The position numbers and the translations under genes were made by a program. A stretch of 64,000 nt of DNA, from NCBI RefSeq assembly GCF_001050275.1, contig NZ_BBYA01000015.1, positions 62,001-126,000 of the forward strand. Reading direction: 5' to 3'. The notes below the pieces were generated by a model. That model ran no database searches and had not been told where the DNA came from. It worked only from the letters and a program-made list of their open reading frames with translations. This stretch comes from Leptolinea tardivitalis. Its GTDB lineage: Bacteria > Chloroflexota > Anaerolineae > Anaerolineales > Anaerolineaceae. Shown here one piece after another: positions 1,145 to 20,184 of this stretch (position 1 is its first letter; the number at the start of each line of letters is the position of its first letter).

Positions 1145-1189
1145 AAATCAGGGTGAAATTTTTTGTAAAAATAGTTGAATATCTGGCCG

Positions 1190-3121: not shown

Positions 3122-3134
3122 TTCGATTCTCTTT

Positions 3135-3623: not shown

Positions 3624-3624
3624 A

Positions 3625-4641
3625 TTAATCTGTGAAAGGAATCAGTACCCAATCGCCGCGGTTGAAATGGCAATCTGCCGGGCAATTGTTGTATTGTTCG
3701 AGCAATTTGTTATCAACCGTCCCGGCGGTTGACAGGCGGCCGGCGGCGGCTTCTTCATCAGTGACCTGGTGGATGCGAAATGCCGGCATTCCTGGCACTT
3801 TCTCCGTCATGCCGGGGGCAATGATGATGACCGAACCGATCCACAGGGGATACGACAGATCGTAATTCAGGTCGACCAGAATGGCGCGGGTAGTGTTAAA
3901 TTTAAGGGCAAGAAAGTCATACCCTTCCCCTTCGATAACTCGATGAAGAACAAACTCCTGCCCGTCGATGATGAAGGGTTTTTCCAGGGTTATATAGGCG
4001 TCTGACGGTGTTTCCGTTTTACCGGGCGTGGGCGAAGGCTGTGCCGCCGGGTCTGTGACGCGCCTTCCGATGGCAGCCAAGGTAATGGTCTGGTATACCA
4101 TCGGTGAGGCGGTTGCCGGCGGCAGGGTGACTGTGCTGGTCGGACGGATTGTCAGGGTAAAGGCCGGGGTTGCCGTCGGCTCATCAACAGCATTGCCGGT
4201 GACCGGGATCAGCCCCGCAGCCAGTTCTGTTTCAACCGGCCGGGTCATGTCAACCGTTGGAACCAGGGTCGGGCCGGTAGCCAGTGCTGGAATCTCAACT
4301 CCCCTAACGACGAAATAGTAGTACCCCAGACCAAGCAGCGCCAGAATGACGAACACCCAGAGGGAAACACGCACCGGAGTCGAAAGGCGGTGATGGCCCG
4401 GGTTACGTCCCTGAAGCGCTGCCGGGAACACGTCGGTCTCGTTCTGTAGAAAGACACGGCAGGCGGTGTGATTCTGGGTGAGACAGTATTCCCGTTGATG
4501 GTCAAACGTCGGAGAGACAGGTCTTCGACAGTGATAGCAGCAGTTTGACGCAGACTCATACGCCAGCGAGGTGGTTTTGTCATACCGCAGACCCAGGAAG
4601 GGGCAGATGGATCGGTTGTTGTCGGTGTTGTTAATTTCCAT
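3625..4641 (-). CDS. Cys-rich, single-pass membrane protein with C-terminal LysM-like domain
   Basis: 338 residues. The N-terminal 65 residues hold a Cys cluster (CPFLGLR, NCCYHC, REYC, TAC) of a type I remember as recurrent in Chloroflexota proteins; it may bind metal. A membrane helix follows (about 93-112), then a Thr/Pro-rich linker to about 210. The C-terminal 120 residues look like one or two divergent LysM units (FVLHRVIEGEGYDFLAL, then an asparagine-rich turn and WIGSVIIIAP). This layout places the LysM-like part outside the cell. The gene lies between wbaP and the phosphatase gene with one-base spacing to the latter. A role in tethering polymer to the wall is an inference. Confidence 0.65.
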   Translation of the reverse strand: MEINNTDNNRSICPFLGLRYDKTTSLAYESASNCCYHCRRPVSPTFDHQREYCLTQNHTACRVFLQNETDVFPAALQGRNPGHHRLSTPVRVSLWVFVILALLGLGYYYFVVRGVEIPALATGPTLVPTVDMTRPVETELAAGLIPVTGNAVDEPTATPAFTLTIRPTSTVTLPPATASPMVYQTITLAAIGRRVTDPAAQPSPTPGKTETPSDAYITLEKPFIIDGQEFVLHRVIEGEGYDFLALKFNTTRAILVDLNYDLSYPLWIGSVIIIAPGMTEKVPGMPAFRIHQVTDEEAAAGRLSTAGTVDNKLLEQYNNCPADCHFNRGDWVLIPFTD

Positions 4642-4673
4642 TAATTCTCACGGCTGGGGATTTCCCGCCTGTT

Positions 4674-6140
4674 TTAATAGGATCCTTTTCCCCGGATGAC
4701 CACAAACGCTGTGCGAATGAGGATGTGCATATCCAGCCAGATGGACCAGTTGCGCACGTAGTATTCATCGAGGCTGACGCGGCTCTCGTAGCTGGTGTCG
4801 CTGCGGCCCGATACCTGCCACATGCCCGTCATTCCGGGGACGACGTGTTTGTACAGCTCGAACCGCCGGTTGTAATATAGAATTTCTCCGTTGACGATCG
4901 GCCGCGGTCCCACCAGCCCCATTTCACCCTGGAACACGTTGATGAGCTGGGGGAATTCGTCGAGGCTGAATTTTCGCAGGAATTTGCCCACCCGGGTGAT
5001 GCGGGGATCGTTTTTGAGCTTGTAAGTGGCTTCCCACTCGGCACGCAGATCGGGGTTCTTCTCCAGATAGTCTTTCAACATGACGTCGGCATCACGGTGC
5101 ATCGAGCGGAATTTCCACATCTTGAAATGTCTGCCTTCGTACCCGATGCGGTCTTGTTGATAGAAGACCGGCCCCTCTGAATCTAGTTTGATGAGCAGGG
5201 CGATCAGGCCGAACAACGGCAGGGTGACTGGCAGCGAAATGAGGATGAAGCACAGGTCCATCAGCCGTTTGGTGTGCATCTGACTCTTGTTGAGCAGGTT
5301 GTGACCCACTTCGAGACCCAGTATCCCGCCGATATCCAGCGGCTGGATGCACAAACTGCTGGTGACCTGCGAACTGGTGACCATGATCAGGCGTTCAAAC
5401 TGCATGGCCTGTTCTTCGACCAGCCGCGTATGCACGTTCTGTGAAGTCTCGGGGACGACCAGAAAGGCGGTCTTGATGCCGTCGAAGCAGTCTGACCGCA
5501 GTTTCCCGCCAGAGAGAACGTCGTTATCATGCAGCACCCGGTTTTTGACGGCGGTGCGGTCGGTTTTGCGCCGGTCAACCACGGCGACGGGAATGTAGCC
5601 CATTTTGGGATGCGCGCGCAGGAATTCGGCCACTTCGTTGCCCAGGCGGCCGTTGCCAAAGATGACTACCGGTTCGCCCCAGATGCCAAATTTGACCCCC
5701 ACCATGCGGACGAGTTCACGCATCACCGGTATGCTGACCATGCACAGCACCCACGAGAGGATTAACGCCCCCCGGCTGACGGATTCGCTCTGTTTGATGA
5801 TGAAAAGGAATGTGGCCAGGCACATGAAGTAGATGCTGGTCGAAAGGCTCAGCCGGCGCAGTTCTTCGACGGCGCTCACGTGATGGTTGTACAGGCCGGT
5901 CATAAAGTAGATGAGCACGCCCATGCACATGAGCAGCGAGATTTCTGAGTAGATGGCCGGGATGTTCTTGCCGGTGAGGGTGAAGCGGATGGTGATGGAC
6001 AGCCAGTTGGCTGCAAAGAGGCACAAGAGGTCGCTGGCGATCAGGCAAAGTGACATGATGTTCCGGCGGTTGAAGATGGTGCCGGATAGGTGTCGTTGTG
6101 TTGAATTGTACGTTAGTGCTGTAATTGGTTCATCAGACAT
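4674..6140 (-). CDS. wbaP: Undecaprenyl-phosphate sugar phosphotransferase (WbaP-type), starts the repeat unit
   Basis: 488 residues from the ATG at 6138-6140. A longer reading exists from a TTG at 6275, but its extra 45 residues look unlike protein of this family. Residues 25-150 carry four or five membrane helices, then a Rossmann-like region (VVIFGNGRLGNEVAEFL), then the C-terminal bacterial sugar transferase domain with KRLMDLCFILI, KFRSMH, DPRITRVGKFLRKFSLDEFPQ, GLVGPRP and the PGMTGMWQVSGRS block. The enzyme transfers sugar-1-phosphate from a nucleotide sugar to undecaprenyl phosphate at the inner leaflet. WbaP against other polyprenyl glycosylphosphotransferases cannot be settled by sequence alone; the sugar is unknown. 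The gene is GC-rich, like the kinase gene and unlike the cassette between them. Confidence 0.9.
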   Translation of the reverse strand: MSDEPITALTYNSTQRHLSGTIFNRRNIMSLCLIASDLLCLFAANWLSITIRFTLTGKNIPAIYSEISLLMCMGVLIYFMTGLYNHHVSAVEELRRLSLSTSIYFMCLATFLFIIKQSESVSRGALILSWVLCMVSIPVMRELVRMVGVKFGIWGEPVVIFGNGRLGNEVAEFLRAHPKMGYIPVAVVDRRKTDRTAVKNRVLHDNDVLSGGKLRSDCFDGIKTAFLVVPETSQNVHTRLVEEQAMQFERLIMVTSSQVTSSLCIQPLDIGGILGLEVGHNLLNKSQMHTKRLMDLCFILISLPVTLPLFGLIALLIKLDSEGPVFYQQDRIGYEGRHFKMWKFRSMHRDADVMLKDYLEKNPDLRAEWEATYKLKNDPRITRVGKFLRKFSLDEFPQLINVFQGEMGLVGPRPIVNGEILYYNRRFELYKHVVPGMTGMWQVSGRSDTSYESRVSLDEYYVRNWSIWLDMHILIRTAFVVIRGKGSY

Positions 6141-6358
6141 GGGTTCCCCGCTCTTCCCTGTATCAAAAAGGCTCCATCCCTGTGCGGTGGAGAAAAAGAA
6201 AGACAACTGTGCAGTTTTTGGCTTTATAGCCGGGTTTGGGTCAATCCTTTGCCGCCCCCTGGGTTCGTCCTGCAATATTCATACAATGTTAATTCGTTGA
6301 CAACCTGCTGGGAATAGGCAATTCCACGTAATGCAGGGTTTTCTCATCTTTCCACCCG

Positions 6359-7537
6359 TCATTCGTATTCCGCCAGGATGGCCTCAAATTGATGGTAGAT
6401 GGGTTCAAGGGCAAAGTGCTTTTCAGCATACGCCCGGGCATTACGCCCCAGGCTTTCGCGCAGGTCCGGCCGGTTGACGAGTGTCTCGGCCTGCGAGATC
6501 CACCCCGCCGCATCCCCCGGCTCGCTGACCAGCCCCGCCTGCGCCGATTCGACCATGCCCGCGGCTTCATTTTGATGTGACATCGAAAGCAGCACCGGGC
6601 GCCCCGCGCACAGGTAGGTGAGCACTTTCGAAGGGACAGAGAACCGGCTGGCATCGGCATTAATCAGGGAGACAAGCACACTGGCAGAAGCCAGTACCTG
6701 CGGGTAAACATCCGCTGGCTGAAACGGCAGGAGGATAAGATTGGGCAGCCCCCGCCGCTGCTGCTCGCCGCGCAGCCAGTCAGCCCCGCCGCCTTCTGAT
6801 ACCACCACCACCCGCACGCGGTCATCGGTTTTGAAGTGCTCTGCCAGGGTGACGAACATCTCAGGGTTGTGTTTGTACCCCAGTATGCCGGAATACAGAA
6901 AGTTGACGGTTTTATCGAGCCCGTGTCCGCGCGACCAGGCGTTATCCTGATCCATCGGGGGGATTTCTTCGAGCGGCGCCCAGTTCGGGATGACGTGCGT
7001 TTTGGTGCGCTCGATCCCCCAGTCATCCAGCAGGGGGTAAAACCCCGGGCTGATGAGGATGACTCTGTCGCTCTGTACAAGCAGGCGGCGTTCCATCTGC
7101 TGGTAGTAGCGCCCCATCAGGCCGCCCATCACGGGGATTTTATGCCGCAGGATGTTTTCCATGGCAAGCCCGATGGCATCCTGGAACCAGAAGATGAAGC
7201 GGGAACGGGTTTCACGGCAGGCTTGCGCCAGAATGCGCTGGGAATCGAGCGGGGTGTTGGCTGATATGACCACGTGCGGACGTTCTGCGCGAATATGGGC
7301 GGCCAGTGTTTTTCCGTAAGACTGTTCCCACAGGTAGCGGTTGACCAGGTTGTACTTGGCCAGCGGCCGCCCGGTGCTTACGGCTTTGCTGGCAAAAGTC
7401 CGGCTGGCCGGGTCGCCGCAGCGTTTGACGAGCTGGTCTGAACTGTAGAGGTATGTGATTGTATGGTTTTGCGAGAGCCGCCGTGCCACCTGCTGGCTGA
7501 AGGCGTATCCCCCGTAGTCATGGAACAGGATGTTCAA
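6359..7537 (-). CDS. Glycosyltransferase family 4 protein, WcaI-like
   Basis: 392 residues, GT-B fold. The N-terminus MNILFHDYGGYAF is the acceptor-side strand; the donor site includes VNFLYSGILGYKHNPEMF and the late SRFSVPSKVLTYLCAGRPVL block with the sugar-nucleotide glutamate region shifted to a Lys/Leu-rich form, as in WcaI-like enzymes. It should add one sugar to the lipid-linked repeat in the cytoplasm. The ATG overlaps the stop of the upstream GT39-like gene by four bases. This is the point where base composition changes: this gene is GC-rich, the upstream one AT-rich. It therefore belongs to the conserved part of the locus and may add the second, invariant sugar. Confidence 0.85.
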   Translation of the reverse strand: MNILFHDYGGYAFSQQVARRLSQNHTITYLYSSDQLVKRCGDPASRTFASKAVSTGRPLAKYNLVNRYLWEQSYGKTLAAHIRAERPHVVISANTPLDSQRILAQACRETRSRFIFWFQDAIGLAMENILRHKIPVMGGLMGRYYQQMERRLLVQSDRVILISPGFYPLLDDWGIERTKTHVIPNWAPLEEIPPMDQDNAWSRGHGLDKTVNFLYSGILGYKHNPEMFVTLAEHFKTDDRVRVVVVSEGGGADWLRGEQQRRGLPNLILLPFQPADVYPQVLASASVLVSLINADASRFSVPSKVLTYLCAGRPVLLSMSHQNEAAGMVESAQAGLVSEPGDAAGWISQAETLVNRPDLRESLGRNARAYAEKHFALEPIYHQFEAILAEYE

Positions 7538-8856
7538 TTTTGTATGATAATGGATTTTGATATGTCAATTTTAGAGAAAAATAAAAACTTCTTTTGTAAC
7601 CAATTTATCGCGATAACAAAACCATAAGAACTAAACATAATTACAGTTGGTAGAACAAAAATCGGATACCTCGGTAAAACAAAAAACACCATAGACACTG
7701 CTGTACTAGTAAGCAATAGAAGATATAAGACCATGAATTTTTTGTAGTACTTAATACTATTACATAGACCGAGTATAAAAAATGGAAGCAGACAAAACCA
7801 CGGCCCTAAAACTAACGGTGAATGCACCTGTGGGTAATTCATTTCAAAACCAAAATATACCCCACCCCAGTAATAGAAAAATTTACGAATGGCAAGGACG
7901 ATTACTCTTCCCGGGTTTGCCCTCATTACCTTTATTGCCTCATCTTTATATATTTGATCGCGATCAATTTCATATTTATTTGAAAGAACGATATTTCGGA
8001 TTTTCTCTTGTAATTCTTCTGATTCTTTTACAGGGGGAACGACATAACTGCCAAAGGTTCCCTCTGATTTTTCATTTTGGCCCTGCCAGAGATTATAGCC
8101 ACCCGAAATGGTCAACGGCGTTAGTTCGCCAAACACGAGAAAATTCCGAATAACCCAGGGGCTGATCGTAATTCCAATGGCTAACACAAAAATGGCTGTA
8201 AATTTCCAATGTGATTTTCGATTGGATATGAATAACCAGATAATTACCAGAATGGCAAATAATACTGTTTCAGCCCTGGAAAGGATCAATAGACCAAGAA
8301 CTACACCTGCTCCAATATTCCATGACAATATCTTGTTGGGTGAAGTTTCCCGAAATAACATTGTTACTAGATATAGGAAAAGTTGAGCTAAAAAGACATA
8401 TAAGATGACCGCAGAAATCTGGCTGGAACTAAAAGCCAGAATAGGATAGAAGCAGGATATAACCAAAGATAGTACTGCTATAGTTTCATTAAATAACTCT
8501 TTTGTTGTTTGATATACCAGGAGGCAAATTAATGACCCTAAAATTGCTTGAATTATTTCAATTACAAAAACCGCGATTTTCTCATTTCTTATAAGACTTG
8601 TTATCCCTGCCAGAAAATATGGATAGGCTGGGGGCATATAAGCAGATGGGAAAATAGTCTTAGAACTATCAATATATTTTGTTGTTATTTCATTTTCTTG
8701 ATTCACCACATAATATGCAAAACCACGATTATGAATTATGTTAAGAACAAGAGTACTAAATTCATTTGGGATATTTGTATCACCAATGATTGGGATTAAA
8801 GATAATCTTAACAGAAAAGAGAAAAAAATGAAAATAAACAGATATTTTTGTCGCAT
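7534..8856 (-). CDS. GT39/ArnT-like integral membrane glycosyltransferase
   Basis: 440 residues with about ten to eleven hydrophobic helices. An extracytoplasmic loop after helix 1 contains YMPPAYPYFLAG, the typical 'PPxYP' loop of the PMT/ArnT superfamily, and the acidic residue near D26 of helix 1 is in the place of the catalytic Asp. Such enzymes use polyprenyl-phosphate sugars on the outer face of the membrane, so this one could decorate the repeat unit or a protein after flipping. It is the last AT-rich gene before the GC-rich flank, and overlaps the next gene by four bases. Confidence 0.75.
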   Translation of the reverse strand: MRQKYLFIFIFFSFLLRLSLIPIIGDTNIPNEFSTLVLNIIHNRGFAYYVVNQENEITTKYIDSSKTIFPSAYMPPAYPYFLAGITSLIRNEKIAVFVIEIIQAILGSLICLLVYQTTKELFNETIAVLSLVISCFYPILAFSSSQISAVILYVFLAQLFLYLVTMLFRETSPNKILSWNIGAGVVLGLLILSRAETVLFAILVIIWLFISNRKSHWKFTAIFVLAIGITISPWVIRNFLVFGELTPLTISGGYNLWQGQNEKSEGTFGSYVVPPVKESEELQEKIRNIVLSNKYEIDRDQIYKDEAIKVMRANPGRVIVLAIRKFFYYWGGVYFGFEMNYPQVHSPLVLGPWFCLLPFFILGLCNSIKYYKKFMVLYLLLLTSTAVSMVFFVLPRYPIFVLPTVIMFSSYGFVIAINWLQKKFLFFSKIDISKSIIIQN

Positions 8857-8915
8857 CTCTTACCACTTGAATTGAGGTATCGTTTTAGGCCTATCGTTTT
8901 TTAACAAAGATCCCC

Positions 8916-10022
8916 TCAGTTGGATGTTTTCATTAAATCTTTATAATAACATTCGAATTCTTTTCCAATAATCTCTTCTTTACATTTGCTTCTTATAGAA
9001 TATTTCGCATTCTCACCTAAATAATTCGCAAAGTCAGAATCTTGAAACAATCGATCAATTTCCTGAGTGAAACCTTGAATATTTCCAGGTTCTACGATAA
9101 TTCCATTTTCATAATTACATATTAAGTCCAAAATACCATCAATACTTGAAGCAACGACTGGTTTTCCAATCCACATAGCTTCAATTAATGCTCTAGGCAT
9201 CATTTCTGAATGTGAGGGAAATACAAAAATATTATTTTTTTCCACTATTTCCATTGCTTCATCTTTTGAAAGCCAACCTGTAAAGATAACATTTTCTTCT
9301 AGCTTTTTTTCTTTTACAAGAGCATTTAGTTTCTCTTTATACTTTTTATCATTTATCCCACCAACTAAGAAGCAGACAATAGTTGGATATTTATCTTTCA
9401 ATGAAGATACAATGTGAATAAGGTCCTCTTGAGCTTTTCTGGGTTCAATATTTGCGATATAGGAAATTGATATCAGTGTTTTTTTTGGGGGGGTGTTTTT
9501 TATTTGAACATTATTTTCGTGAAATGCATTTGGTATGAAGCGAACACGTTTTTGTTGTAAATCATTATGATATAGATAATCTCGAAGAGTTGTAGATAAT
9601 GCAATAAACCCGTCAGAAAAATAACGAATATAAAATATGCATATTTTTCTAGATATCCAAGATTTCCAAACGGTTGGATTATGCGAAATACCAATGATCC
9701 TTGATTTCTTTAATACGGGAATGAATAATGATGAGAACCAGAGGGCAGGCAAGTCTTTCAAATTATTAGAAAGAATTGAATCGTAATAATTTTCTGACAA
9801 ATATGAGAATAAGAATAGAGAAAATTCTATGAAACCGAAAAATGATGATATAGGAGTAAATTCAACAATAGATAAATTTTTCTTTAGGAATCGCAATTCA
9901 TCAAGATCAATTGACGGATCAAAATATCTGTCATGAGTAATAAGGATTGTAAGATCTAGATTTGTTTGCAGGTGAGCGTAAACTTGAGATTGAATTGGAC
10001 GAATTATGAGAGATTTATTCAT
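8916..10022 (-). CDS. Glycosyltransferase family 4 protein
   Basis: 368 residues from the ATG at 10020-10022; a TTG two codons earlier gives the longest reading but is less likely. The C-terminal Rossmann domain has ISYIANIEPRKAQEDLI, VIFTGWLSKDEA and the donor-site motif SEMMPRALIEAMWIGKPVVAS (about 270-290), all typical of GT4. Predicted cytoplasmic retaining transferase for one sugar of the repeat. A homopolymer run of seven C followed by eight A (minus strand; plus positions 9479-9493) lies in the coding sequence and could slip. Very AT-rich, like the rest of the cassette. Confidence 0.85.
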   Translation of the reverse strand: MNKSLIIRPIQSQVYAHLQTNLDLTILITHDRYFDPSIDLDELRFLKKNLSIVEFTPISSFFGFIEFSLFLFSYLSENYYDSILSNNLKDLPALWFSSLFIPVLKKSRIIGISHNPTVWKSWISRKICIFYIRYFSDGFIALSTTLRDYLYHNDLQQKRVRFIPNAFHENNVQIKNTPPKKTLISISYIANIEPRKAQEDLIHIVSSLKDKYPTIVCFLVGGINDKKYKEKLNALVKEKKLEENVIFTGWLSKDEAMEIVEKNNIFVFPSHSEMMPRALIEAMWIGKPVVASSIDGILDLICNYENGIIVEPGNIQGFTQEIDRLFQDSDFANYLGENAKYSIRSKCKEEIIGKEFECYYKDLMKTSN

Positions 10023-10055
10023 TTTCAAATAGAGAAGTACAGTTAGTGTAAGTTA

Positions 10056-11258
10056 TCAAAGACAATAGAGTTCAGCATATTTCGCAATCGAAGATTGCCA
10101 ACTAAATTTTTCTATTGCCAGTGATTTACATTTTGATCGAAGATTTGATTTATCAACATGGTAATTACAGAAATCAATTATAGATTTGGTCGAACGATTA
10201 ACATCAAAAGATATGGAACATAAAATATCTGTTTCCCCCATTAGGGATTTTATACAACCGATATTTGGTGTTGAAGCCAGTGCAACACCACTAGCAAGAT
10301 ACTCAGATATTTTTATTGGGCTAGCCACATGATTAATCAGAATATCCTCTCTGAGGATAATACCTATGTCAGATGCAGATAATAAGTTATATGTCTCCTC
10401 TACTTTATTGGTCGAAAAAATGTGCCAATGAGTTATATCGATTTTGAGTAAATCTGCTTTTTGTTTGAGTAAATCCACATCTTGAGTTATTACTAAAATG
10501 TGAGTTTTTAGAATTGATAATTCTAGTGATCGCAATAATCTAATTATTTCATCAGGCTTTTGCCATTTAAGAAAACTTCCACTATATACAAAAACCCATT
10601 CGTCGTTATTAACATTCCAATTTTTACGTAAATCTTCTCTAATTTTTTCTTTTCCTTCAAATAATCTTATATCAACACTTGCAGGAATTGTATTGATTCG
10701 TAAATTTGAATATTTGTTCTGTAAATATTGTGTCATCGTTTGAGATACAGATAATAATTGTGAAGCTCTAGTAGCACATATATATTCAAAATATTGAAGA
10801 ATTTTAAACCAGTAATAATTAATTGGTGTCTTTTTTTTGTCTAAAATCATCTCTTCAGAAGATAATCCTCTAAAATCATGAATCCATGTTATATTTTTTT
10901 TATTTCTTGCTAAGGTATTAATAAAGTAACCTGAAATACAATATCTTGTGTAAATAATTACATTTTGTTCTAAATACTCTTCTTTGTTTTTTATTAGCCA
11001 AATAGTAGCCCTGAAACATGCAAGAAGTATTGTAAAAATATTTATCTTATTTGAAAAATAAGGAAGAATTGTCTTTTTAATATTAGATTCTGATATTTCA
11101 TTTTTCTTTTCAAAAGTATGTTCTTTTTTATCACATGTAATAATTTCCACTTCTGAACCAGCATCTTTAATTAGTGAAGCAGGAATTAGCACTTGTGATT
11201 TAAATACACCATCTTTGCTGGCTACAAATTCTGGAACAAAATAAATTATCTTCTTCAT
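10056..11258 (-). CDS. Glycosyltransferase, GT4-like
   Basis: 400 residues, GT-B fold. Features seen are an N-terminal MKKIIYFVPEF strand, the acceptor-domain segment TWIHDFRG, and in the donor domain VFVYSGSFLKWQKPDEI, ASDIGIILRED and SPIKISEYLASGVALAST. The donor block has KISEYLA in place of the usual glutamate-x7-glutamate pattern, which is seen in FucNAc/ManNAc-type transferases, but I cannot assign a sugar. The start overlaps the stop of the upstream transferase by four bases, so the two are translationally coupled. Confidence 0.8.
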   Translation of the reverse strand: MKKIIYFVPEFVASKDGVFKSQVLIPASLIKDAGSEVEIITCDKKEHTFEKKNEISESNIKKTILPYFSNKINIFTILLACFRATIWLIKNKEEYLEQNVIIYTRYCISGYFINTLARNKKNITWIHDFRGLSSEEMILDKKKTPINYYWFKILQYFEYICATRASQLLSVSQTMTQYLQNKYSNLRINTIPASVDIRLFEGKEKIREDLRKNWNVNNDEWVFVYSGSFLKWQKPDEIIRLLRSLELSILKTHILVITQDVDLLKQKADLLKIDITHWHIFSTNKVEETYNLLSASDIGIILREDILINHVASPIKISEYLASGVALASTPNIGCIKSLMGETDILCSISFDVNRSTKSIIDFCNYHVDKSNLRSKCKSLAIEKFSWQSSIAKYAELYCL

Positions 11259-12271
11259 AATACTTGCCTATATACATCGATTATTTCAGCACCAATACTT
11301 TCCCAGGAAAATTTTTCGGTTATCTTCTCTTTGAGATTGAAGTTCTTTTCTTCTATCCATTCTCTTTTTATTGATTGATAAATATTAGTAGTATTTGGTT
11401 TTGTATATGTTATTAAGTTTCCTAACACTTCCCCCATAGCAGTTCTTTCTGTAAGAATAATTCTTGTTCCTGCAGCCGAAGCTTCTAATACAGATATAGG
11501 AAATACTTCGGATTCACTTACAAGTGCGAATAGTTTTGCTGATGAATATGCAGATGCAAGCAATGGATCATCATTGTTTATGGCATCGATAAATAGTACA
11601 TCAGATTCCTTTGCCTTTTCCTTACATTCCAGATAATAGCCTGGATGTTGAGTATTAGCAGGTCCAATAAGAACTAATGGCCAATTACCTTTTTTACATG
11701 CTTCGATCAACTTTAGTTGATTTTTCCTTGGTTCTATTTTCCCTACACATAATACAAAATCTCTCTTCCCATATTTTTCTAGGAATAATGTTGGGGTTGC
11801 ATTTAAAAATTTTTTATCTATACCATTAGGTATTACTCTAATTTTTTCTGGCGAAATAGAAAATGCTTTCTTTATAATTTCTTTTTCTTTATCAGTTAAT
11901 GCAATTAAATAATCAGCTAACCTGGCTATACCATAAGATTGCTTTATTGACGAGAAAACTCCTCTACATCTCTTCGAAATTTGAACTTGCATACTTAGAG
12001 TAGCTAAAGATCTATCCTGCAAATTAAGTACTGAGCTGACAATTAATGGTTTTGATTTCGCTTTTACAATTTCGGCGAATTCATAGATTGAAGGGTGTAA
12101 TGAAAATATATGAACCACATCAACATCAGATAATTTTGATTTCCATGGGTCAAAATAAACTACATCAATTCCTGCTTTTTCTAATTGATCCGCTGTTTTT
12201 GCTATTTGTATTTGCATACCCCCCAAATTTTGACCAATATGGGGATATGAAACAAAAAGTACTTTTATCAT
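11255..12271 (-). CDS. Glycosyltransferase family 4 protein
   Basis: 338 residues. GT4 hallmarks are YPHIGQNLGGMQIQI at the N-terminus (glycine loop), RVIPNGIDKKF, LCVGKIEPRKNQLKLIEA and the donor-site stretch SESEVFPISVLEASAAGTRIIL with the conserved E-x7-E. The sugar is unknown. Start and stop overlap the neighbouring genes by one and four bases, marking a tightly packed operon. Confidence 0.88.
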   Translation of the reverse strand: MIKVLFVSYPHIGQNLGGMQIQIAKTADQLEKAGIDVVYFDPWKSKLSDVDVVHIFSLHPSIYEFAEIVKAKSKPLIVSSVLNLQDRSLATLSMQVQISKRCRGVFSSIKQSYGIARLADYLIALTDKEKEIIKKAFSISPEKIRVIPNGIDKKFLNATPTLFLEKYGKRDFVLCVGKIEPRKNQLKLIEACKKGNWPLVLIGPANTQHPGYYLECKEKAKESDVLFIDAINNDDPLLASAYSSAKLFALVSESEVFPISVLEASAAGTRIILTERTAMGEVLGNLITYTKPNTTNIYQSIKREWIEEKNFNLKEKITEKFSWESIGAEIIDVYRQVL

Positions 12272-13641
12272 TAGTTTGTTATCAGTCCAGAGTTATTATT
12301 GCGCATTTTTAGAAGATCCATTGAAAGGGATTCTGGATAAATACTCTCATAACAAAAAAGTATGGCAAGGCTTATAAATACAGGTATTGAGCCAATATCA
12401 CTAATTGAAAGGATACCTAAAAAAGAAGCAAAAAATCCCAATAGAAAAAAGCTCCTTGTAATGTTCTTTCCATTTTTGATCATTCTTGATATAGACATGG
12501 AAATTATGAGAATAATCGGAGAATAGTATATAAATAAACCAACCAATCCAAGATCAACTAGAATAGCTAATAGCGTATTATGGACAGCATCTCCCACTCT
12601 TGTTACATAACCACCCAACCCAATACCCACGAATATATTCTTGGGATTTGACATAAAGATATCTATAGCTTTCATCCAAAAGTAAGTTCGACCTTCCAGT
12701 CCCTCTTCTGTAACACTTTTATATATAGATTCAAACCTAATTAATAAAGCATGTTGGTAAAAATAAATATATATAGGAATAATTAAAAGAAATAAAAATG
12801 AGATTATTATGTTTTTTTTATCAATAAAACATGAACAGATTAGAATAAAAATTAAACAAATCATACCAGCTCGGGAATATGTACCAAGAATACCAATACA
12901 AATTCCAATTTGAACAATGGACCAAAAAGTCTTCTCCCAAAACTCTCTAGATTGTTTTTTACATATTGTCGTTGAAATAAGTGGTGGGAGATATAGTAAT
13001 GATAGATAATTTGGTTCTGTCCCCCAAAATACCAAGCGTTCGTACATATCAAGCAGTCCAGAATTGTGTTTTATAAGTATCCAATTGTGAGATAAACCCG
13101 TATAGTATTGAATCAGACAGATAACGAAAGTTAGGAATCCAATAATTGAGTAAATCTTCAAAAAATCAGAAAGTTTTGTTGCTTCATTTATTACAATTAT
13201 TACTAATAAAAATATTGAAAATCCCCTAAAAGCCCAGTTGAAATATCTAATTCCATTAGTTATATTTGGTGTATAAAAAAGACTGCAAAGGGCATATATG
13301 CAAATTAGTACAAGAAAAAAATAGATAATATTGTTCTTTTTATAAAACAATGCTGTCTTTTTGTAATTTATTAAAACACTTAGCATAGTAAATATTACGA
13401 GAATGATGGCAATAGGATAGGAACTGTATTTGCTTCCAAATTGGATAATTGGCCAATAATAATTACATAATATTACGATTATCCCAAATAGTGGATTTTT
13501 AAAAGAGGCAATAGCTCCTAAAAATAGACCTAGAAATCCTATAAAACTAAATCCCCCTTGAAATGCAGATCCAAATGCCATAAAAAAAACAGCGCAAATA
13601 AATATAGAATTATTGATTCTATTTTTGTTTTTCAAGTTCAT
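12271..13641 (-). CDS. wzy: O-antigen polymerase/ligase-type membrane protein (Wzy candidate)
   Basis: 456 residues with about eleven to twelve hydrophobic helices and one large outer loop (about 300-350) that contains EGRTYFWMKAIDIFMSNP and GIGLGGYV, the pattern of the Wzy_C/O-antigen ligase family. In a Wzx/Wzy locus this enzyme joins flipped repeat units on the outer face of the membrane. Polymerases are poorly conserved, so the call rests on topology, the loop motif and the presence of a flippase, chain-length regulator and initiating transferase in the same operon. Confidence 0.82.
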   Translation of the reverse strand: MNLKNKNRINNSIFICAVFFMAFGSAFQGGFSFIGFLGLFLGAIASFKNPLFGIIVILCNYYWPIIQFGSKYSSYPIAIILVIFTMLSVLINYKKTALFYKKNNIIYFFLVLICIYALCSLFYTPNITNGIRYFNWAFRGFSIFLLVIIVINEATKLSDFLKIYSIIGFLTFVICLIQYYTGLSHNWILIKHNSGLLDMYERLVFWGTEPNYLSLLYLPPLISTTICKKQSREFWEKTFWSIVQIGICIGILGTYSRAGMICLIFILICSCFIDKKNIIISFLFLLIIPIYIYFYQHALLIRFESIYKSVTEEGLEGRTYFWMKAIDIFMSNPKNIFVGIGLGGYVTRVGDAVHNTLLAILVDLGLVGLFIYYSPIILIISMSISRMIKNGKNITRSFFLLGFFASFLGILSISDIGSIPVFISLAILFCYESIYPESLSMDLLKMRNNNSGLITN

Positions 13642-13671
13642 ATATATAATAAAAAGAAATAACTACTTACT

Positions 13672-14189
13672 TCAATTTTTTCTATATCGAATTACTTTTG
13701 CTGGATTACCTGCAACGATACTGTATCTTGGTACATCTTTAGTTACGACTGAACCAGCGCCTATTATTGAACCTGTTCCTATAGTTACACCCGCAAGGAT
13801 AGTAACCCTGGCACCAATCCATACATCATCTTCAATAGTAATCGGCCCTGCATCATAAAAACCTTGTTCTACCATTGGGCGATCTAATAAATCAAAACAA
13901 TGATATTGGCTATAAATTATGCAACCAATAGCCATCATCACATTATCACCAATTGTTAAATCTGCCCTAATCCAACTGTCTATTCCAAGGTCACTATTAT
14001 TTCCAATAGTTATTGTTTTTCCTGTATCAAAATCCGCACCTTTATAGATATTAATTCTTTTCCCTGCTTTTCTTACTACTCTTTTTACTAAAAATGCCCT
14101 AAACCAATTTCCAAATTTACCAAATGGGTATGATTTTATCGGTAAATTTTTCGCATTGTTGTAATATAAAAAAAGATGTACCTAATGAT
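13672..14189 (-). pseudogene. Hexapeptide-repeat acetyltransferase (WcaF/maa-like) with no usable start, likely frameshifted
   Basis: The open frame from 14181 to 13672 encodes 169 residues of a left-handed beta-helix acetyltransferase: [14 protein letters not shown], then [30 protein letters not shown] and the closing [14 protein letters not shown]. No ATG, GTG or TTG precedes the repeat in that frame. The only in-frame starts (GTG then ATG near 13941) would remove nearly half the helix. Upstream residues [14 protein letters not shown] match the family's usual N-terminus, but a stop codon (14182-14184) comes before them. Reading one extra base in the A7 run at 14168-14174 would join [10 protein letters not shown] to RYIFF in another frame, and the codon that would then be the start is ATC (14187-14189) instead of ATG. 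Two lesions suggest decay; an ATT/ATC start with slippage, or a sequence error, is possible. Confidence 0.6.
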
Positions 14190-14225
14190 TCTTTTCTCGA
14201 AATCTACGGATATTTTTTATAAGAA

Positions 14226-15701
14226 TTAAGACTGATACAACTTTTTATCCATCATTTTCAAAATCCATTTCCTTTTCCAAATAATTATCGAATAGTATAA
14301 AGAAGTACCTAGAAATGCGATAAGAAGAATAATCTCGCGAGAGAAATCTAAATAGGTTAAAAAGGAAAGTAGGCATCCTAAAGGTATAAATGCCCCTAGA
14401 CTTTTTCCTATGTATTGCGATAACTTCTTCCAATTCGCTCCAGAGATATTCATTATCATCACACATAGAAACCCATATACAATAATTCCAGATAAAGCGA
14501 AAAGTAAAATCGCTATGCGTGGATTTTGTGATATTCCACCTATTAAAAGTGAAATAAATCTGCTGATGAAAATCACAATATCAAGCTTAAGACTAAATTC
14601 CTGCTTTTGTAAAACAAGGAATATATTACTTATTGGTGAAGAAATAAACCAGAAAAACATCCAAATGCTGAGTATTTGTGTATATACTCCAGCTTCTGCC
14701 CATTCTTTTCCAAAAAGCAAAAAAAATAAATCTGAACCTGTTATGGTTAAGACCAATAATGGAAAGAGCGTAAATAAAACAAGGTAGTCTAGAGAATTTT
14801 CGACCAATTTAGAAAGATGGCCTTCTTTTTGTGCTTCAGCAGCTCTGGGTAAAAACGCTTGAGAAATTGTTACACCAATAAGATTCATTGGCATTCTTAA
14901 AATTTTATTCCCTAGATCATACAAACCAGAAACGGATGGAGAAAAATATGCAGCAAGCATAAGAGTGGGTAATTGCCAGGAGAAATAATTCAGAATGCCG
15001 GAACCAGTACTATACAGTGGAAATTTTCTATAACGATAGATTAAACTTTTCATTAATTCGATGTCTATTGCTGAAAGTATCTTTTGTAAGTCAGTCCAAA
15101 ATGTTTTTGTAAATAATACTAATGTAGATGCAATATTTCCCCAGATAACTCCATGAATCAGTATTCCAATTGTTGGTGGATTTATTAATCCTAGACCAAC
15201 TTGAAATGAGGAAGTTATTCCACTATAAGTTACTCTTCCAATCGAAACATCTCCAAACTTGTGGAATCTCGTATTCCAATAACTAATTACTTGAAAAATC
15301 CCTGTAAAAAAATTCAGAAGAGGTAAAACCCAGAGATAAGTGAAAAGATTTGATGCATTTAACAGCTTTAAAAATGTATTTCCCACAGAAATCGTTAAAA
15401 TCCACACCAGAAATGTTGTAAAAATTACTAATAAGAAACATAAAACAAGAATATTGCTTGCTTCTTCAAATGTGTCTGGTAGTATGATTGCCAGTTCATA
15501 TCTCAATGAAGAGACAATAGTCAATACTCCAGTAATTGATATAAAAATAGCTAAGCTTCCAGTTTGCTCTGGAGTATATAATCTGGTAATTATTGGAATT
15601 GCAATTACATTAATAAGTTGCGCCAGTACGGTTCCAGTTAATATTGAGAATATATCTTTAAAAATGCTTTTTTTTATTTTTTCTAGAAATTGAGTAAACA
15701 T
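14226..15701 (-). CDS. wzx: Polysaccharide flippase, Wzx/RfbX type
   Basis: 491 residues with about fourteen hydrophobic helices, the usual count for Wzx-type members of the MOP exporter superfamily. The N-terminal segment (LTGTVLAQLINVIAIPIITRLYTPEQTG) is characteristic, as are RAAEAQKEGHL in the middle loop and FGKEWAEAG. It should move the undecaprenyl-linked repeat unit across the membrane. AT-rich like the rest of the cassette. It is 31 bases downstream of the dehydrogenase gene. Confidence 0.88.
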   Translation of the reverse strand: MFTQFLEKIKKSIFKDIFSILTGTVLAQLINVIAIPIITRLYTPEQTGSLAIFISITGVLTIVSSLRYELAIILPDTFEEASNILVLCFLLVIFTTFLVWILTISVGNTFLKLLNASNLFTYLWVLPLLNFFTGIFQVISYWNTRFHKFGDVSIGRVTYSGITSSFQVGLGLINPPTIGILIHGVIWGNIASTLVLFTKTFWTDLQKILSAIDIELMKSLIYRYRKFPLYSTGSGILNYFSWQLPTLMLAAYFSPSVSGLYDLGNKILRMPMNLIGVTISQAFLPRAAEAQKEGHLSKLVENSLDYLVLFTLFPLLVLTITGSDLFFLLFGKEWAEAGVYTQILSIWMFFWFISSPISNIFLVLQKQEFSLKLDIVIFISRFISLLIGGISQNPRIAILLFALSGIIVYGFLCVMIMNISGANWKKLSQYIGKSLGAFIPLGCLLSFLTYLDFSREIILLIAFLGTSLYYSIIIWKRKWILKMMDKKLYQS

Positions 15702-15732
15702 ATTATTTAATAAACACTTGGAAAGTGTGATA

Positions 15733-17016
15733 TTAATTTTTCAAAGGAATAATAAACTTGCATATATCATTAATTAATTGGCATTTTTTATTTGTGATTT
15801 TTTCCCAATTAATATCTCTAAAAATCTTATGGTCAACTAAAATGACAATAAGATCTGCATCTTTCAAAGCATCTTCCAAATTTTCTTCTAGTGATTCGCC
15901 AATTTTATGTAATGATCTTTTTATGTAAGGGTCAAATATTTTGATTTCCAGATTATTTTGATGTAGAAGGTTTATTATTTCTAATGCCGGACTTTCTCGA
16001 AAATCATCAACATCTGGTTTGTATGTAACTCCGAGGCAAGCTATTTTCGGGTTTTTTATTCCTGATAGAGTTTTTTTTATTTTTTCAACGATAAATTGAG
16101 GTTGTGAATCATTAGTTTTTCGTGCTTGATAAATCAATTCCACCGTATTCGGTGCCTTTTCAACTAAAAACCATGGGTCAACACTAATGCAATGTCCACC
16201 TACCCCAATTCCAGGTTGTAGAATTTTTACTCTGGGGTGTAGATTAGCTATAGAAATAGCTTCAAAAATATCTATTCCAAAAATATCTGCAAATCGAGAA
16301 AATTCGTTCGCAATGGCAATATTTACATCTCTGTAAGTATTCTCCATTAATTTGACCATTTCTGCTGTGGTCGAATTCGTGGTTATGATTTTTCCCTTAA
16401 CAAAGCAACTATATAATTCTTTCCCTTTTTCGGCGGAATCTGGTGTAATTCCACCAATAACCCTGGCATTTTCAACAAGTTCTTTCAATATCTGCCCTGG
16501 TAATACTCTTTCCGGAGAATAAGTAACATAAAAATCTTTCCCGGCTACGAGTCCACTTCTTTCAAGAATTGGAGTTATAAGATTTATTGTGGTCTGCGGT
16601 GGTGAAGTGGATTCCAATACAACCAGATTGCCTTCTCGTAAATGTGGAACGATTGCCTCTGTAGCAGTTTTTACCGCATCCATATCGGCAAGTTTATATT
16701 TTTTACCGTCTGTATAACCAAATTCTGAATGTTTAAAAGGTGTTGGTACAGCAATAATAAAAGCGTCAGCCGGTTTTACATCTGATCCAATTATTAATTT
16801 TCCAGATTGGATAGCGTCCTTTACTAATTCTTGTAAGCCCGGTTCCTCTATGTGAATTCCGCCATTTTGTAGTACATCAACAATATTTCTATTAATTTCT
16901 ACACCATAGACTGTTTTTCCATGTGTAGCAAACATAGCAGCAGTTGGTAACCCTATGTAGCCCAATCCTAGAATGCAGATTTTTTCTAGTTTGTTGTTAT
17001 TAGTAATGTTTTCCAT
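15733..17016 (-). CDS. wecC: UDP-N-acetyl-D-mannosaminuronate dehydrogenase (WecC family)
   Basis: 427 residues, the usual length for the UDP-sugar 6-dehydrogenase family. An NAD-binding GLGYIG (17-22) starts the protein, the central domain has the TTAEMVKLMENTYRDVNIA helix, and the catalytic cysteine is C276 in GVGGHCISVDPW. The C-terminal domain has LGVTYKPDVDDFRESPA. The SVDPWF form after the Cys and the FKHSEFGYTDGK loop resemble the ManNAc rather than the glucose enzyme. It makes UDP-ManNAcA from UDP-ManNAc, so the polymer probably contains an acidic amino sugar; the epimerase WecB is not in the window. The ribosome site AAGGGG lies inside the end of the upstream kinase gene, two bases away. 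First gene of the AT-rich cassette. Confidence 0.88.
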   Translation of the reverse strand: MENITNNNKLEKICILGLGYIGLPTAAMFATHGKTVYGVEINRNIVDVLQNGGIHIEEPGLQELVKDAIQSGKLIIGSDVKPADAFIIAVPTPFKHSEFGYTDGKKYKLADMDAVKTATEAIVPHLREGNLVVLESTSPPQTTINLITPILERSGLVAGKDFYVTYSPERVLPGQILKELVENARVIGGITPDSAEKGKELYSCFVKGKIITTNSTTAEMVKLMENTYRDVNIAIANEFSRFADIFGIDIFEAISIANLHPRVKILQPGIGVGGHCISVDPWFLVEKAPNTVELIYQARKTNDSQPQFIVEKIKKTLSGIKNPKIACLGVTYKPDVDDFRESPALEIINLLHQNNLEIKIFDPYIKRSLHKIGESLEENLEDALKDADLIVILVDHKIFRDINWEKITNKKCQLINDICKFIIPLKN

Positions 17017-17018
17017 TT

Positions 17019-18662
17019 TTACCCCTTCTTCTTCCCCTCACCGTCATAGTAATACTTGCCCTTGGCGTAATACTTGTTGTAGTAATACCCGTAGCGCTTG
17101 CTTGAGGGGTTCACCTCATTCAGCACCACCCCCAGAATAGTGGCATTCACCGCCTGCAGGGCTTCAAGGCTCTGGCGGAACGCGCTCTTCTTTGTACTGC
17201 CCGGTTTGGCCACCAGAATCACCCCGTCAACACTCTGAGCCATCGCGGCGGCGTCCGTCACCGTGAGCACCGGGGGCGTATCGATCACAATCATGTCAAA
17301 CCCATGCAGCAAAATCTCCATGATCTTGCCCATGCGCTGCGAAGTCAGCAATTCAGACGGGTTGGGCGGCAGGCTGCCCGAAGTCATCACCGCCAGCCGG
17401 GGTGACGTGGTGCGCTGCAGCGCGTCAGTAATCGCGTCATCCGGCTTCACAAACAGGTCGCTCAGCCCCAGCCGGTTCATCAGCCCGAAGCGGTGATGCA
17501 CCTGCGGCCGGCGCAGATCGGCATCCACCAGAACCACCGTCTTCTCGCCCTGGGCCACCACCACCGCCAGGTTCGTCGAAATCGTCGTCTTACCGTCCTG
17601 CGGCGTGGGGCTGGTGATCACAATCTTGCGCAGCGGCCGATCCACCGAAGCGAAATTGATATTGGTGCGCAGCGCCCGGAACGACTCCGCCACCGGCGAG
17701 CGTGGTTCCGCCTCACAGACCGGCTTGCCGTCTGTCACCTCATGGCGGGCGATCACCCCCAGAATGGGGATGTTGAAACTCTTGCGCACCTCTTCAGGAT
17801 TCTTGATCGAATCGTCCAGCATATCCACCGCGAAAATCGTCCCCGCGGCGAGCAGCATCCCCACCACCACAGCCAGAAACGTATTCTGCATCGTGCGCGG
17901 GCTCACCGGCGTATAGTTCGGCGTGGCGGGCTCCGTCACCACCACATTCGTACTGGTCTGGGCTTCTGAAAGGCGCACCTTCTCATAATTCAGCACCAGG
18001 TCAGAATACAGCTTGGTATATTCCGTCAGCCGGGCTTCAAGCTGCTGCCGGCTGGCTTCATTTGTGGTGATCTCCAACTCGCGGGTCGTCTTCTCGATCT
18101 GCGTCCCCATCTCCGTTACCTGCTTCTGCAGGCCGTCTTTACTGGTGGTGTAGCGCTGCGATTGCAGCTCGCGCACCCGGTCAGCAAACACCCGGGCCAG
18201 AGAATTGGCCATATCCGCCGCGCGTACCGGGTCAGGGTCCGTCACCGTCACCACCAGAAGCTGGGTCTGGTTGATCAGCTCGACAGAGATATTCTTCTTC
18301 AACTGCTCCACCGTCAGCGTGAGGTTCTGGTCATCGATCACCCCCTGCAGCACCGGCGAATCGAGCACCATCTCGGAATACGTCGTCGGCATTGTCGACG
18401 TGTTGAGCATCGACTTGCTGTCAATCGTGCTGATCGACGGCGGATCGCTCACCAGCAGCCGGGTGGTCGTCTCATACATCGGCACCTGGCGCGACGAAAT
18501 AAAGTACGCCGCCGCACCGGCCACCAGCCCCGCGAGAATGATCACCCATGCCCATGACCATAACAGGTACAGGTATTCTTTAATATCCACGCCCGAATCA
18601 AACGGGTCTGCTGCATACGAAGATGACACGGGTGAAAAACGTTCAGATGAGTAAGTATCCAT
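17019..18662 (-). CDS. Fused Wzz-type chain-length regulator and BY-kinase
   Basis: 547 residues. The Wzz domain spans about 22-282, with membrane helices at about 36-56 and 262-280 and an external coiled region between. The cytoplasmic BY-kinase domain follows, with Walker A (SPTPQDGKTT, 351-360), Walker A' (VLVDADLRRP, 377-386) and Walker B (MIVIDTPP, 457-464). The last 25 residues contain nine tyrosines (YGYYYNKYYAKGKYYY), the autophosphorylation cluster. The protein controls polymer length together with Wzy, and its phosphorylation cycle would be closed by the phosphatase at 3135-3623. First gene of the operon, GC-rich; its ribosome site is weak (AGG seven bases before ATG). Confidence 0.93.
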   Translation of the reverse strand: MDTYSSERFSPVSSSYAADPFDSGVDIKEYLYLLWSWAWVIILAGLVAGAAAYFISSRQVPMYETTTRLLVSDPPSISTIDSKSMLNTSTMPTTYSEMVLDSPVLQGVIDDQNLTLTVEQLKKNISVELINQTQLLVVTVTDPDPVRAADMANSLARVFADRVRELQSQRYTTSKDGLQKQVTEMGTQIEKTTRELEITTNEASRQQLEARLTEYTKLYSDLVLNYEKVRLSEAQTSTNVVVTEPATPNYTPVSPRTMQNTFLAVVVGMLLAAGTIFAVDMLDDSIKNPEEVRKSFNIPILGVIARHEVTDGKPVCEAEPRSPVAESFRALRTNINFASVDRPLRKIVITSPTPQDGKTTISTNLAVVVAQGEKTVVLVDADLRRPQVHHRFGLMNRLGLSDLFVKPDDAITDALQRTTSPRLAVMTSGSLPPNPSELLTSQRMGKIMEILLHGFDMIVIDTPPVLTVTDAAAMAQSVDGVILVAKPGSTKKSAFRQSLEALQAVNATILGVVLNEVNPSSKRYGYYYNKYYAKGKYYYDGEGKKKG

Positions 18663-19014
18663 TAATTAACCTGATGATTTGGGATAAATAGAATCTAAAA
18701 GACAGACGAAAGCCGCCTGAGAATATCCAAGCTCCGCCCTTTCGACATCAGCCGATGCCGAACACACTTTGCCCTGACGCACACCCTGCCCGAAAAACCT
18801 GCCAGTCTCACCGACGGGGGTGGTTTGTCTTATTCAATTACCTGTATTTGGTTGAGAAAACGGCTTTCTACCTGTAAGACCCCGCTGCTGTAGTGACCCC
18901 CTGCGCCGAACCGTCTATACTTGCCTTGATGAAAGACTACCGGATGATCAGCTACTTCTGGGATTATCACCGCACATCAAACCAGCCTGTGAGGTAATAA
19001 TTTATAACGACCGC

Positions 19015-19023
19015 ATTATAGCA
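19015..19023 (-). promoter_or_regulatory. Extended -10 promoter for the exopolysaccharide operon
   Basis: Minus strand TGCTATAAT, a perfect extended -10 element (TGnTATAAT). No good -35 is present, as is common with extended -10 promoters. Transcription would start near 19008, about 345 bases before the kinase gene. Confidence 0.55.
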
Positions 19024-19059
19024 TTAAAACTTCTATTTTCGTATTAATACTTAATATAT

Positions 19060-19089
19060 TTGTGGAAATATGTGGAGAACACCTATAAT
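19060..19089 (+). promoter_or_regulatory. Promoter candidate for the NusG paralogue
   Basis: TTGTGG (19060-19065), an 18-base spacer, then TATAAT (19084-19089). It faces away from the polysaccharide promoter, about 60 bases apart, so one regulator could act on both. Confidence 0.5.
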
Positions 19090-19338
19090 TTCCCCCTTAA
19101 CACAAGATAATGAGTTTTTCTGCGGTTGTAACCGTCATCCTTTGTCTCCCGGCCGATGAAATAGAGGCACTCTCAGGGCAGACCGGCTGAAGATGCTCCC
19201 ATACCTGATCGTATTCTCCTCAGGGTGAGGACATATCTCGAAGAGGAGCGATATTAAGTAATAATACCTAGTTATTAAAATGCCTGATACGTTACAATAC
19301 TTATCATAATTAAGCGGTTAATAGTAGGGGGAATTCAA

Positions 19339-19422
19339 ATGAGTCATAAAGTAAAAATTGTATTTCGAGAGGGGGGAGATAATGTCAACTATCTGGTGTG
19401 TCTTACATTGCAAACCGAATAA
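19339..19422 (+). CDS. Possible 27-residue leader peptide overlapping the nusG-paralogue start
   Basis: ATG at 19339 has a strong ribosome site (AGGGGG, eight to nine bases upstream). The frame encodes 27 residues and stops at 19422, 40 bases inside the nusG-paralogue gene in another frame. The ribosome site of that gene (GGGGGGAG) lies within this short frame. The layout would allow translational coupling or attenuation of the regulator. No homology is known to me; it could also be chance. Confidence 0.4.
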   Translation: MSHKVKIVFREGGDNVNYLVCLTLQTE

Positions 19423-19906
19423 AGAAGAATTTGTGCACCGTGAATTGGAATATAGAGGAGTGGCGCATTTCTATCCATTCGTTACGGTGGTGCCAGTCAA
19501 CCCCCGCAGCCGAAAGCGGCGTCCGTATTTCCCGGGGTACATCTTTGTTCATATCGACCTGGATAATGAAACCCAGGCATCTGCACTGCGCTGGGTGCCA
19601 GGCACGGTGGGACTGGTCACCTTTGACGGACTGGTCGCCGGCGTGCCCGAGAGTCTGGTCAATGCCCTGCAGAAACGCATGGCCGAGCTTCCCGCTATCA
19701 TGGCCGCTGAACGAACCTTCCGCCCGGGCGATCGTGTGCGGGTGGTAAGTGGTCCCTTCGCCGGTTATGAAGGCATTTTTGACATGAACCTCAGCGGGCA
19801 GGAACGTGTACAGGTGTTACTTCGATACCTGCATCACAACATCCGTAAGGTGGATATTAATACAGCGTCGCTGGTCAAGGTGACGGCAGCTGGCACCACG
19901 TCTTAA
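19382..19906 (+). CDS. NusG paralogue (RfaH/LoaP/UpxY-like antiterminator)
   Basis: 174 residues from the ATG at 19382, preceded by GGGGGGAG; an upstream TTG reading adds eight unlikely residues. Residues 1-100 are a NusG N-terminal domain (WCVLHCKPNKEEFVHREL, PRSRKRRPYFPGYIFVHID), residues about 113-174 a KOW domain (FRPGDRVRVVSGPFAGYEG). General NusG is usually encoded between secE and rplK. This copy instead sits divergently at the head of a polysaccharide operon, as specialised paralogues do in other phyla. It probably rides on RNA polymerase transcribing the 18-kb operon and prevents early termination. Which DNA or RNA signal recruits it is not visible. Confidence 0.88.
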   Translation: MSTIWCVLHCKPNKEEFVHRELEYRGVAHFYPFVTVVPVNPRSRKRRPYFPGYIFVHIDLDNETQASALRWVPGTVGLVTFDGLVAGVPESLVNALQKRMAELPAIMAAERTFRPGDRVRVVSGPFAGYEGIFDMNLSGQERVQVLLRYLHHNIRKVDINTASLVKVTAAGTTS

Positions 19907-20141: not shown

Positions 20142-20184
20142 GATCAGGTAAAAATTGTAGGGTTGGATAATCGAAAGGGGAATT

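Follow-up and report, generated by a model that had tools for sequence, protein, structure and literature searches.

Specialised NusG factors must find the operons on which they act; for RfaH the way in which this happens has been worked out in detail, for LoaP in part. The same question is raised by a locus of Leptolinea tardivitalis (genome of 3.69 Mb in 15 contigs), where a NusG-domain protein is encoded next to a divergent polysaccharide operon: does the protein act on this operon, and which signal would recruit it? The locus was analysed within a 64,000-nt stretch of contig NZ_BBYA01000015.1, the whole of which we call the window. A sequence-only reading had described a NusG-domain protein lying head to head with an 18-kb polysaccharide operon, and both the domains and the gene order agree with this description. 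The parts of the locus are as follows.

19382..19906, plus strand: NusG paralogue of a Chloroflexota RfaH-like family, 174 aa (domain and profile searches)
19084..19089, plus strand: TATAAT of the inferred paralogue promoter (sequence; not in the promoter scan)
18663..19008, minus strand: untranslated leader of the polysaccharide operon (start inferred on the basis of the TATAAT at 19020-19015; not in the promoter scan)
17019..18662, minus strand: Wzz/tyrosine autokinase, first gene of the presumed target operon (domain search)
491..17016, minus strand: rest of the polysaccharide operon (domain search)

The NusG paralogue and the divergent operon

The reading frame of the NusG-domain protein can start at a TTG (19358-19906, plus strand) or at an ATG behind a GGGGGGAG stretch (19382-19906), and it contains the Pfam domains NusG (3.1e-14) and KOW (6.4e-5). 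Had it been the only nusG in the genome, the idea of a specialised factor would have been refuted. However, two PF02357 loci were found by a whole-genome profile search, and the sequence around the other copy shows it in the secE-nusG-rplK place, with the order rpmG-tRNA-secE-nusG-rplK-rplA. The window protein (19382-19906) is a paralogue and not the housekeeping NusG. It also fulfils the definition of a specialised NusG (NusG-SP), that is, an NGN and a KOW domain, a housekeeping NusG elsewhere in the genome and a long operon nearby.

The best NCBIfam match of the window protein was RfaH, and none of the cut-offs was reached: it scored 88.6 bits (cut-off 144.5) and 73.6 bits (cut-off 124) with the RfaH models TIGR01955 and NF006534, 67.5 bits (cut-off 100) with UpxY (NF033644), 43.9 bits (cut-off 135.7) with NusG (TIGR00922) and 38.7 bits (cut-off 125) with LoaP (NF033641). 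All 57 family members that we aligned were matched by the RfaH, UpxY, NusG and LoaP models alike, RfaH giving the lowest best E-value, and N40-P41-R42 were invariant among them. The family is large within Chloroflexota, and its best scores are with RfaH models. A tree was made of the window paralogue and 40 paralogues drawn at random; E. coli RfaH and the NusGs stood on long branches, so we leave the descent of the paralogue from RfaH undecided. An AlphaFold2 prediction from 57 sequences (mean pLDDT 84.5) gave the C-terminal domain as a beta-barrel, with block pLDDT values of 62-83 there; it shows one state only and does not address an alpha-helical autoinhibited form. The best Foldseek matches included NusG structures and fully recruited RfaH, with TM-scores of about 0.5 over the two-domain chain.

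For the presence of the paralogue we drew a line at E 1e-16, in the gap between the weakest paralogue (6.3e-17) and the best canonical NusG (2.7e-14). By this measure (E ≤ 1e-16), 70 of 147 genomes of the window's family, Anaerolineaceae, are carriers. Thirty-three paralogue loci were fetched from 61 genomes (36-47% identity), and a scan of named genomes, partly overlapping the family set, contributed 80 loci, the best 80 of 254; removal of identical proteins reduced the locus set from 161 to 146. The genes after the paralogue varied and encoded ABC-2 exporters, sugar enzymes, LytR-CpsA-Psr proteins, a polyketide synthase, GAF-histidine-kinases and others. The paralogue lay immediately ahead of a GAF-histidine-kinase gene in six loci (L038, L045, L047, L054, L057 and L065), and beside the paralogue in these six no element of the kind described below was found; some genomes with such loci (G006, G028, G033) carry elements on other contigs. 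Only one of three other genomes of the same genus had the paralogue (41% identity), with the element absent at E 0.01.

On the other side, the polysaccharide genes run on the minus strand from 18662 to about 491. Those behind the Wzz/kinase gene (491..17016) encode a UDP-sugar dehydrogenase, a flippase, Wzy, glycosyltransferases, PMT_2, Bac_transf (a sugar transferase), LMWPc (a phosphatase), DUF4012 and a LuxR-type regulator; the last may be separate from the operon. Since the intergenic gaps are short, with the sole exception of the 584 nt that separate the Wzy gene from the flippase gene, we infer that these roughly 18 kb form a single transcript. The 584-nt gap contains a hexapeptide-transferase fragment of 89 aa (13672-13941, minus strand), probably a remnant. 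The genome has a second Wzz/kinase gene (G000:C8, 43% identity), with no element match listed nearby in the genome search with our covariance model R1. Directly after the paralogue lies an 8.3-kb gene for a surface-type protein of 2765 aa (20185-28482, plus strand) with leucine-rich, carboxypeptidase-regulatory and Ig-like repeats.

Divergent promoters about 60 bases apart and a leader of about 345 bases had also been claimed. The positions of two exact TATAAT hexamers, 19020-19015 (minus) and 19084-19089 (plus), fit this well, the former giving a leader of about 346 nt. The start sites themselves can only be inferred, because the -35 boxes of both hexamers are weak and a consensus promoter scan listed neither of them (4 sites found, 3.4 expected). 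In the k-mer count of relatives, 66 of 124 paralogue genes had a TATAAT ahead of them, compared with 13.2 expected.

A hairpin element with an ops-like core

The k-mers were counted in the DNA before and after the paralogue genes of relatives. Of the 91 intergenic regions after the gene, 42 contained TGTCGGA (0.7 expected) and 40 contained GGGCGGA (1.4 expected). An element upstream of the paralogue genes was rejected, as the k-mers there were only TATAAT with its neighbours and coding letters. Aligned, the downstream copies had the form ATGTCGGA-(A/G/T)-GGGCGGA(T/G)GC(K)TG, an element of about 37 nt in which a hairpin is followed by GGGCGGA(T/G)GCKTG. After this alignment the window copy was first spotted by eye. 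A BLAST of the intergenic DNA against its own genome gave no convincing second copy (next match 25 bases, E 0.015), and a MAFFT alignment of mixed-length elements (A3) was dropped because the 5' arms were misplaced.

For a weight matrix we used 45 seeds that excluded the window, and a line of 17 bits was set after the scores had been seen. Above it, matches were found in 78 of 146 loci, seeds included, compared with 2 per 3.09 million reversed positions; the remaining 68 loci had no such copy in the stretch scanned. The window match, ATGTCGAAAGGGCGGA at 18748-18733 (minus strand), scored 23.8 bits and lies 70 nt ahead of the first gene. We also used two covariance models: R1, started from five equal-length copies of relatives with the window excluded, and the later R2, trained on copies adjoining paralogue genes, the window's among them. 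Together they define the following features.

18727..18762, minus strand: loading element (name inferred), hairpin plus ops-like core, UUCGGCAUC-GGCU-GAUGUCGAA-A-GGGCGGAGCUUGG (R1, R2)
18741..18762, minus strand: hairpin of the element, 9-bp stem with one G-U, GGCU loop (arm pairing, fold, covariation)
18727..18739, minus strand: ops-like core GGGCGGAGCTTGG (comparison with ops12, PMC5995543)

A Chloroflexota-specific loading element of DNA or RNA had been suggested for 18663-19010, and R1, to which the window was new, found a match there at 18762-18727 (minus strand; 31.9 bits, E 2.6e-6), inside the divergent polysaccharide leader and ending 64 nt ahead of the first gene. R2 gave it 38.8 bits. 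Neither R1 (at E 1) nor R2 (at E 10) found another match in the window, hence none in 19907-20184, ahead of the 2765-aa gene. In the 3.69-Mb genome it was the only significant R1 match (next E 0.24), so at the sensitivity used the regulon probably comprises this operon alone. In the stretches scanned, no Rfam family matched at the element, and JUMPstart (RF01707) matched neither the window at 18500-20300 (E 10) nor the loci of 15 relatives (E 5).

Among the 78 elements, 63 lie 35-322 nt after the paralogue stop, 8 at about 4-5 kb (L164, L170, L171, L173, L181, L185, L206 and L226) and 2 at 0.8-1.1 kb; one is upstream and 4, including the window's, are on the opposite strand. The divergent layout was also seen in L058, with the element before a flippase gene, and in L050, before an ABC-2 exporter gene. 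The head-to-head layout is therefore an exception, and mostly the paralogue lies codirectionally upstream of the element. In locus L055, from the same-genus genome G001, seven weak TTCCGTAGGGGCGGA matches were seen at 6789-7533 on the minus strand in its locus orientation; they are exactly 124 nt apart and form a tandem repeat.

In the window the arms are TTCGGCATC-GGCT-GATGTCGAA, the complementary arm standing upstream of the core. The segment 18742-18762 alone folds with -10.0 kcal/mol (z -3.95), whereas the 38-nt element with the core reaches only z -1.62 and has a different best fold. The hairpin forms as DNA too, so we cannot decide between RNA and DNA. Anchored stems of at least 7 bp were found in 30 of 77 elements, compared with 5.1 expected from shuffled upstream DNA. 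Swapping the arms between loci still left 23.7 such stems; this test is weak, since both arms are conserved. The loops vary in length and sequence among relatives. Comparative folding of the leader in relatives had been suggested as a check; for the element, the helix covaries in relatives. In 57 R1 matches at E 1 from 78 sources (5 of them training copies, 2 second hits), 91.5% of the cells were paired and 14 were double-changed, compared with 2.8 in shuffles (0/500), and sliding the register lowered the pairing to 32-46%. Covariation was also seen in 20 copies outside the R2 training set (18 distinct), with 88.8% paired and 10 double changes compared with 3.8 (0/500); their second pair was U-A in 10, C-G in 5, A-U in 1, U-G in 1 and unpaired in 1. 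Both results lean towards the structure, because the model had served to fit the alignments and R2 to find the outside copies.

The ops element is GGCGGTAGCGTG, with a C3:G8 pair, a G4-A7 loop, a flipped T6 and a pause TG at positions 11-12 (PMC5995543). It had been stated that no ops site is present, and literally this is right: the window has no GGCGGTAGCGTG within one mismatch, and its 2 sites with two mismatches (1.46 expected) are not in the leader. What the statement missed is the ops-like core in the 3' half of the element. The core variants among the 78 elements were GGCGGAGC (34), GGCGGATGC (25), GGCGGAGGC (12), GGCGGACGC (3) and 4 others, and T6 is absent or replaced by another base. 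Aligned by eye with the ops-contacting residues of RfaH (also from PMC5995543), the window protein keeps K10 as K11, whereas the T6-pocket residues H20, R23, Q24 and R73 are replaced by E21, Y24, R25 and P73. The missing or replaced T6 fits the replaced pocket. We infer a pause at the TG 18729/18728. It would follow the stem by 12 nt, which is about the usual spacing of hairpin-stabilised pauses.

Distribution of the element

Among the 147 genomes of the family (paralogue E 1e-16, element E 1e-4), the element was found in 46 of 70 carriers of the paralogue and in 2 of 77 others (p 8e-18); at E 0.01 it was found in 55 carriers and 14 others. The 24 carriers without an element at E 1e-4 include the same-genus G001. 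In a sample of 300 Chloroflexota genomes with completeness of at least 90%, at the same thresholds, 18 of 41 carriers and none of 259 others had the element (p 5.6e-18), leaving 23 carriers without it; outside the window's family the counts were 10 of 33 and 0 of 257. That the same 300 genomes entered the paralogue and the element searches is inferred from their matching labels. The p-values overstate the association, since independence of the genomes cannot be assumed and the training copies of R2 adjoin paralogue genes.

In many carriers the element copies lie on contigs other than that of the paralogue. We fetched 20 copies away from the paralogue, 18 from carriers and one each from the non-carriers G158 and G069. 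One copy (L262) was left unannotated, 5 belong to one module with an SSB-like gene, and the other 14 were annotated. The first genes behind these 14 encode Wzz/kinase (2), ABC-2 (3), Wzt, Wzy, hexapeptide transferase (2), a sulfotransferase, a glycosyltransferase, a TPR protein, an AMP-binding protein and one protein without family; by our own call, 11 of the 14 copies precede a polysaccharide-related gene. In relatives the element stands at the head of polysaccharide operons, some of them adjoining the paralogue and others far from it.

In the module (L243, L244, L246, L248 and L260) the element, at 242-346 of the oriented strand, follows an ORF ending in LPF or LPY, which we take to be an SSB-like tail. 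The module, made up of small ORFs, is conserved across four genomes, one of which (G069, 71% complete) has no detected paralogue. Perhaps this module is mobile and makes use of a borrowed loading site.

Proposed recruitment of the paralogue

We consider it likely that the paralogue is a specialised NusG working on this operon in the manner of RfaH. This reading starts from the observed family, the element with its covariation and location, and its co-occurrence with the paralogue; pausing, binding, displacement of NusG and processivity or antitermination are inferred, no functional step having been demonstrated by data on binding, pausing or expression. From the minus-strand promoter, RNA polymerase would transcribe about 250 nt, at which point the nascent RNA would fold into the hairpin 18762-18741 just outside the polymerase, with the enzyme over the ops-like core at 18739-18727. 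The complex would probably pause at the TG 18729/18728 and the paralogue would be captured there. It could then displace the housekeeping NusG, stay bound and allow the polymerase to cross the operon of about 18 kb without Rho-dependent polarity or termination. The regulon would probably be this one operon. Several results count against this reading: the 68 loci and the 24 and 23 carriers without an element, the 2 family non-carriers with one, the weak outcome of the arm swap, the lost T6-pocket residues, and the E. coli rfb leader described below. The tests above are also favoured by the choice of training copies for R2 beside the gene.

Other explanations were weighed. The element could be an RNA attenuator or the site of another protein that regulates polysaccharide operons, its co-occurrence with the paralogue being due to shared islands. 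The non-carriers G069 and G158, with an element at E 1e-4, and the copies behind the SSB-like gene would suit this, although G069 and G158 are only 71% and 88% complete and the paralogue may be missing from the assemblies. We think it unlikely, given the ops-like core, the copies that carriers hold on other contigs and the absence of the element from all 259 non-carriers of the phylum sample, in which we assume polysaccharide operons to be common. Another possibility is a LoaP-like one: recruited by the hairpin, the paralogue would suppress an intrinsic terminator that lies past the element and ahead of the first gene. LoaP itself binds to a hairpin in the RNA and overcomes a terminator in the leader (PMC12691694); here a terminator-like hairpin at 18719-18703 is followed by TCTTTTA, and the stretch scanned has 6 terminator-like sites compared with 1.4 in shuffles. 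Behind the elements of relatives, however, only 3 of 76 had such hairpins (1.0 in shuffles, sd 1.1), and the LoaP hairpin is of UNCG type whereas the loops here vary, which makes this explanation very unlikely.

The least probable explanation, in our judgement, is that the target of the paralogue is the transcript running in its own direction, namely the 8.3-kb surface-protein gene, as in the many relatives whose operon comes after the paralogue. The gene after the paralogue is indeed codirectional in 125 of 139 loci, compared with 81 of 140 for the gene before it, and most elements stand closely behind the paralogue stop; yet the window has no other R1 or R2 match, 19907-20184 included, and the divergent layout recurs in L058 and L050.

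The RfaH-like reading can be compared with known systems. RfaH with ops/JUMPstart in gamma-Proteobacteria likewise combines a specialised NusG with an element at the operon start ahead of polysaccharide genes and a GGGCGG..GC.TG core. JUMPstart elements (RF01707) have a conserved stem-loop noted by Weinberg and colleagues (PMC2864571). By eye, the E. coli rfb leader, CTCTGGTAGCTGTAAAGCCAGGGGCGGTAGCGTG, has a possible CTGG/CCAG stem in the same layout; however, R2 did not match it and RNAfold prefers another fold there. The Chloroflexota system differs from RfaH in the core without T6, the replaced pocket residues, the scores below the RfaH cut-offs and the predicted beta-barrel, and from JUMPstart in the lack of an Rfam match in the stretches scanned. 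It shares with LoaP and the dfn hairpin of Bacillus a specialised NusG and a long operon whose leader contains an RNA hairpin, but has a GGCU loop in the window, no clear enrichment of leader terminators and a LoaP score far below the cut-off. UpxY of Bacteroidota is also encoded with capsule operons; its site of action is the leader that precedes its own gene (PMC7819879), whereas the element here is mostly after the paralogue gene or across from it, and the UpxY cut-off was not reached. Monomorphic beta-RfaH proteins near their own operons have been proposed to act in cis without ops (PMC13015549); they resemble our paralogue in the beta C-terminal domain (here predicted) and the gene beside a long operon, but in the Chloroflexota family a conserved element is retained, and some of its copies are remote from the paralogue gene.

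We tentatively suggest, as a possibility that we would not yet back over its opposite, that the signal is composite: a paralogue permanently in the beta form would read two things together, an RNA hairpin lying in the exit channel of the polymerase and an ops-like core in the non-template DNA. If so, specificity would come from a two-part signal and not from autoinhibition, and the RNA recruitment of LoaP and the DNA recruitment of RfaH would be united in a phylum far from both; the element could be an ancient or a convergent JUMPstart. The element also has a bearing on the question of one or two origins of hairpin-plus-ops. Among the papers listed by searches of the open PMC literature (titles and starts of abstracts, subscription journals excluded), none concerned Chloroflexota NusG paralogues. 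With this element, a Chloroflexota-wide NusG family gains a defined and compact signal that can be tested in vitro, and a handle on the control of exopolysaccharides in Anaerolineae.
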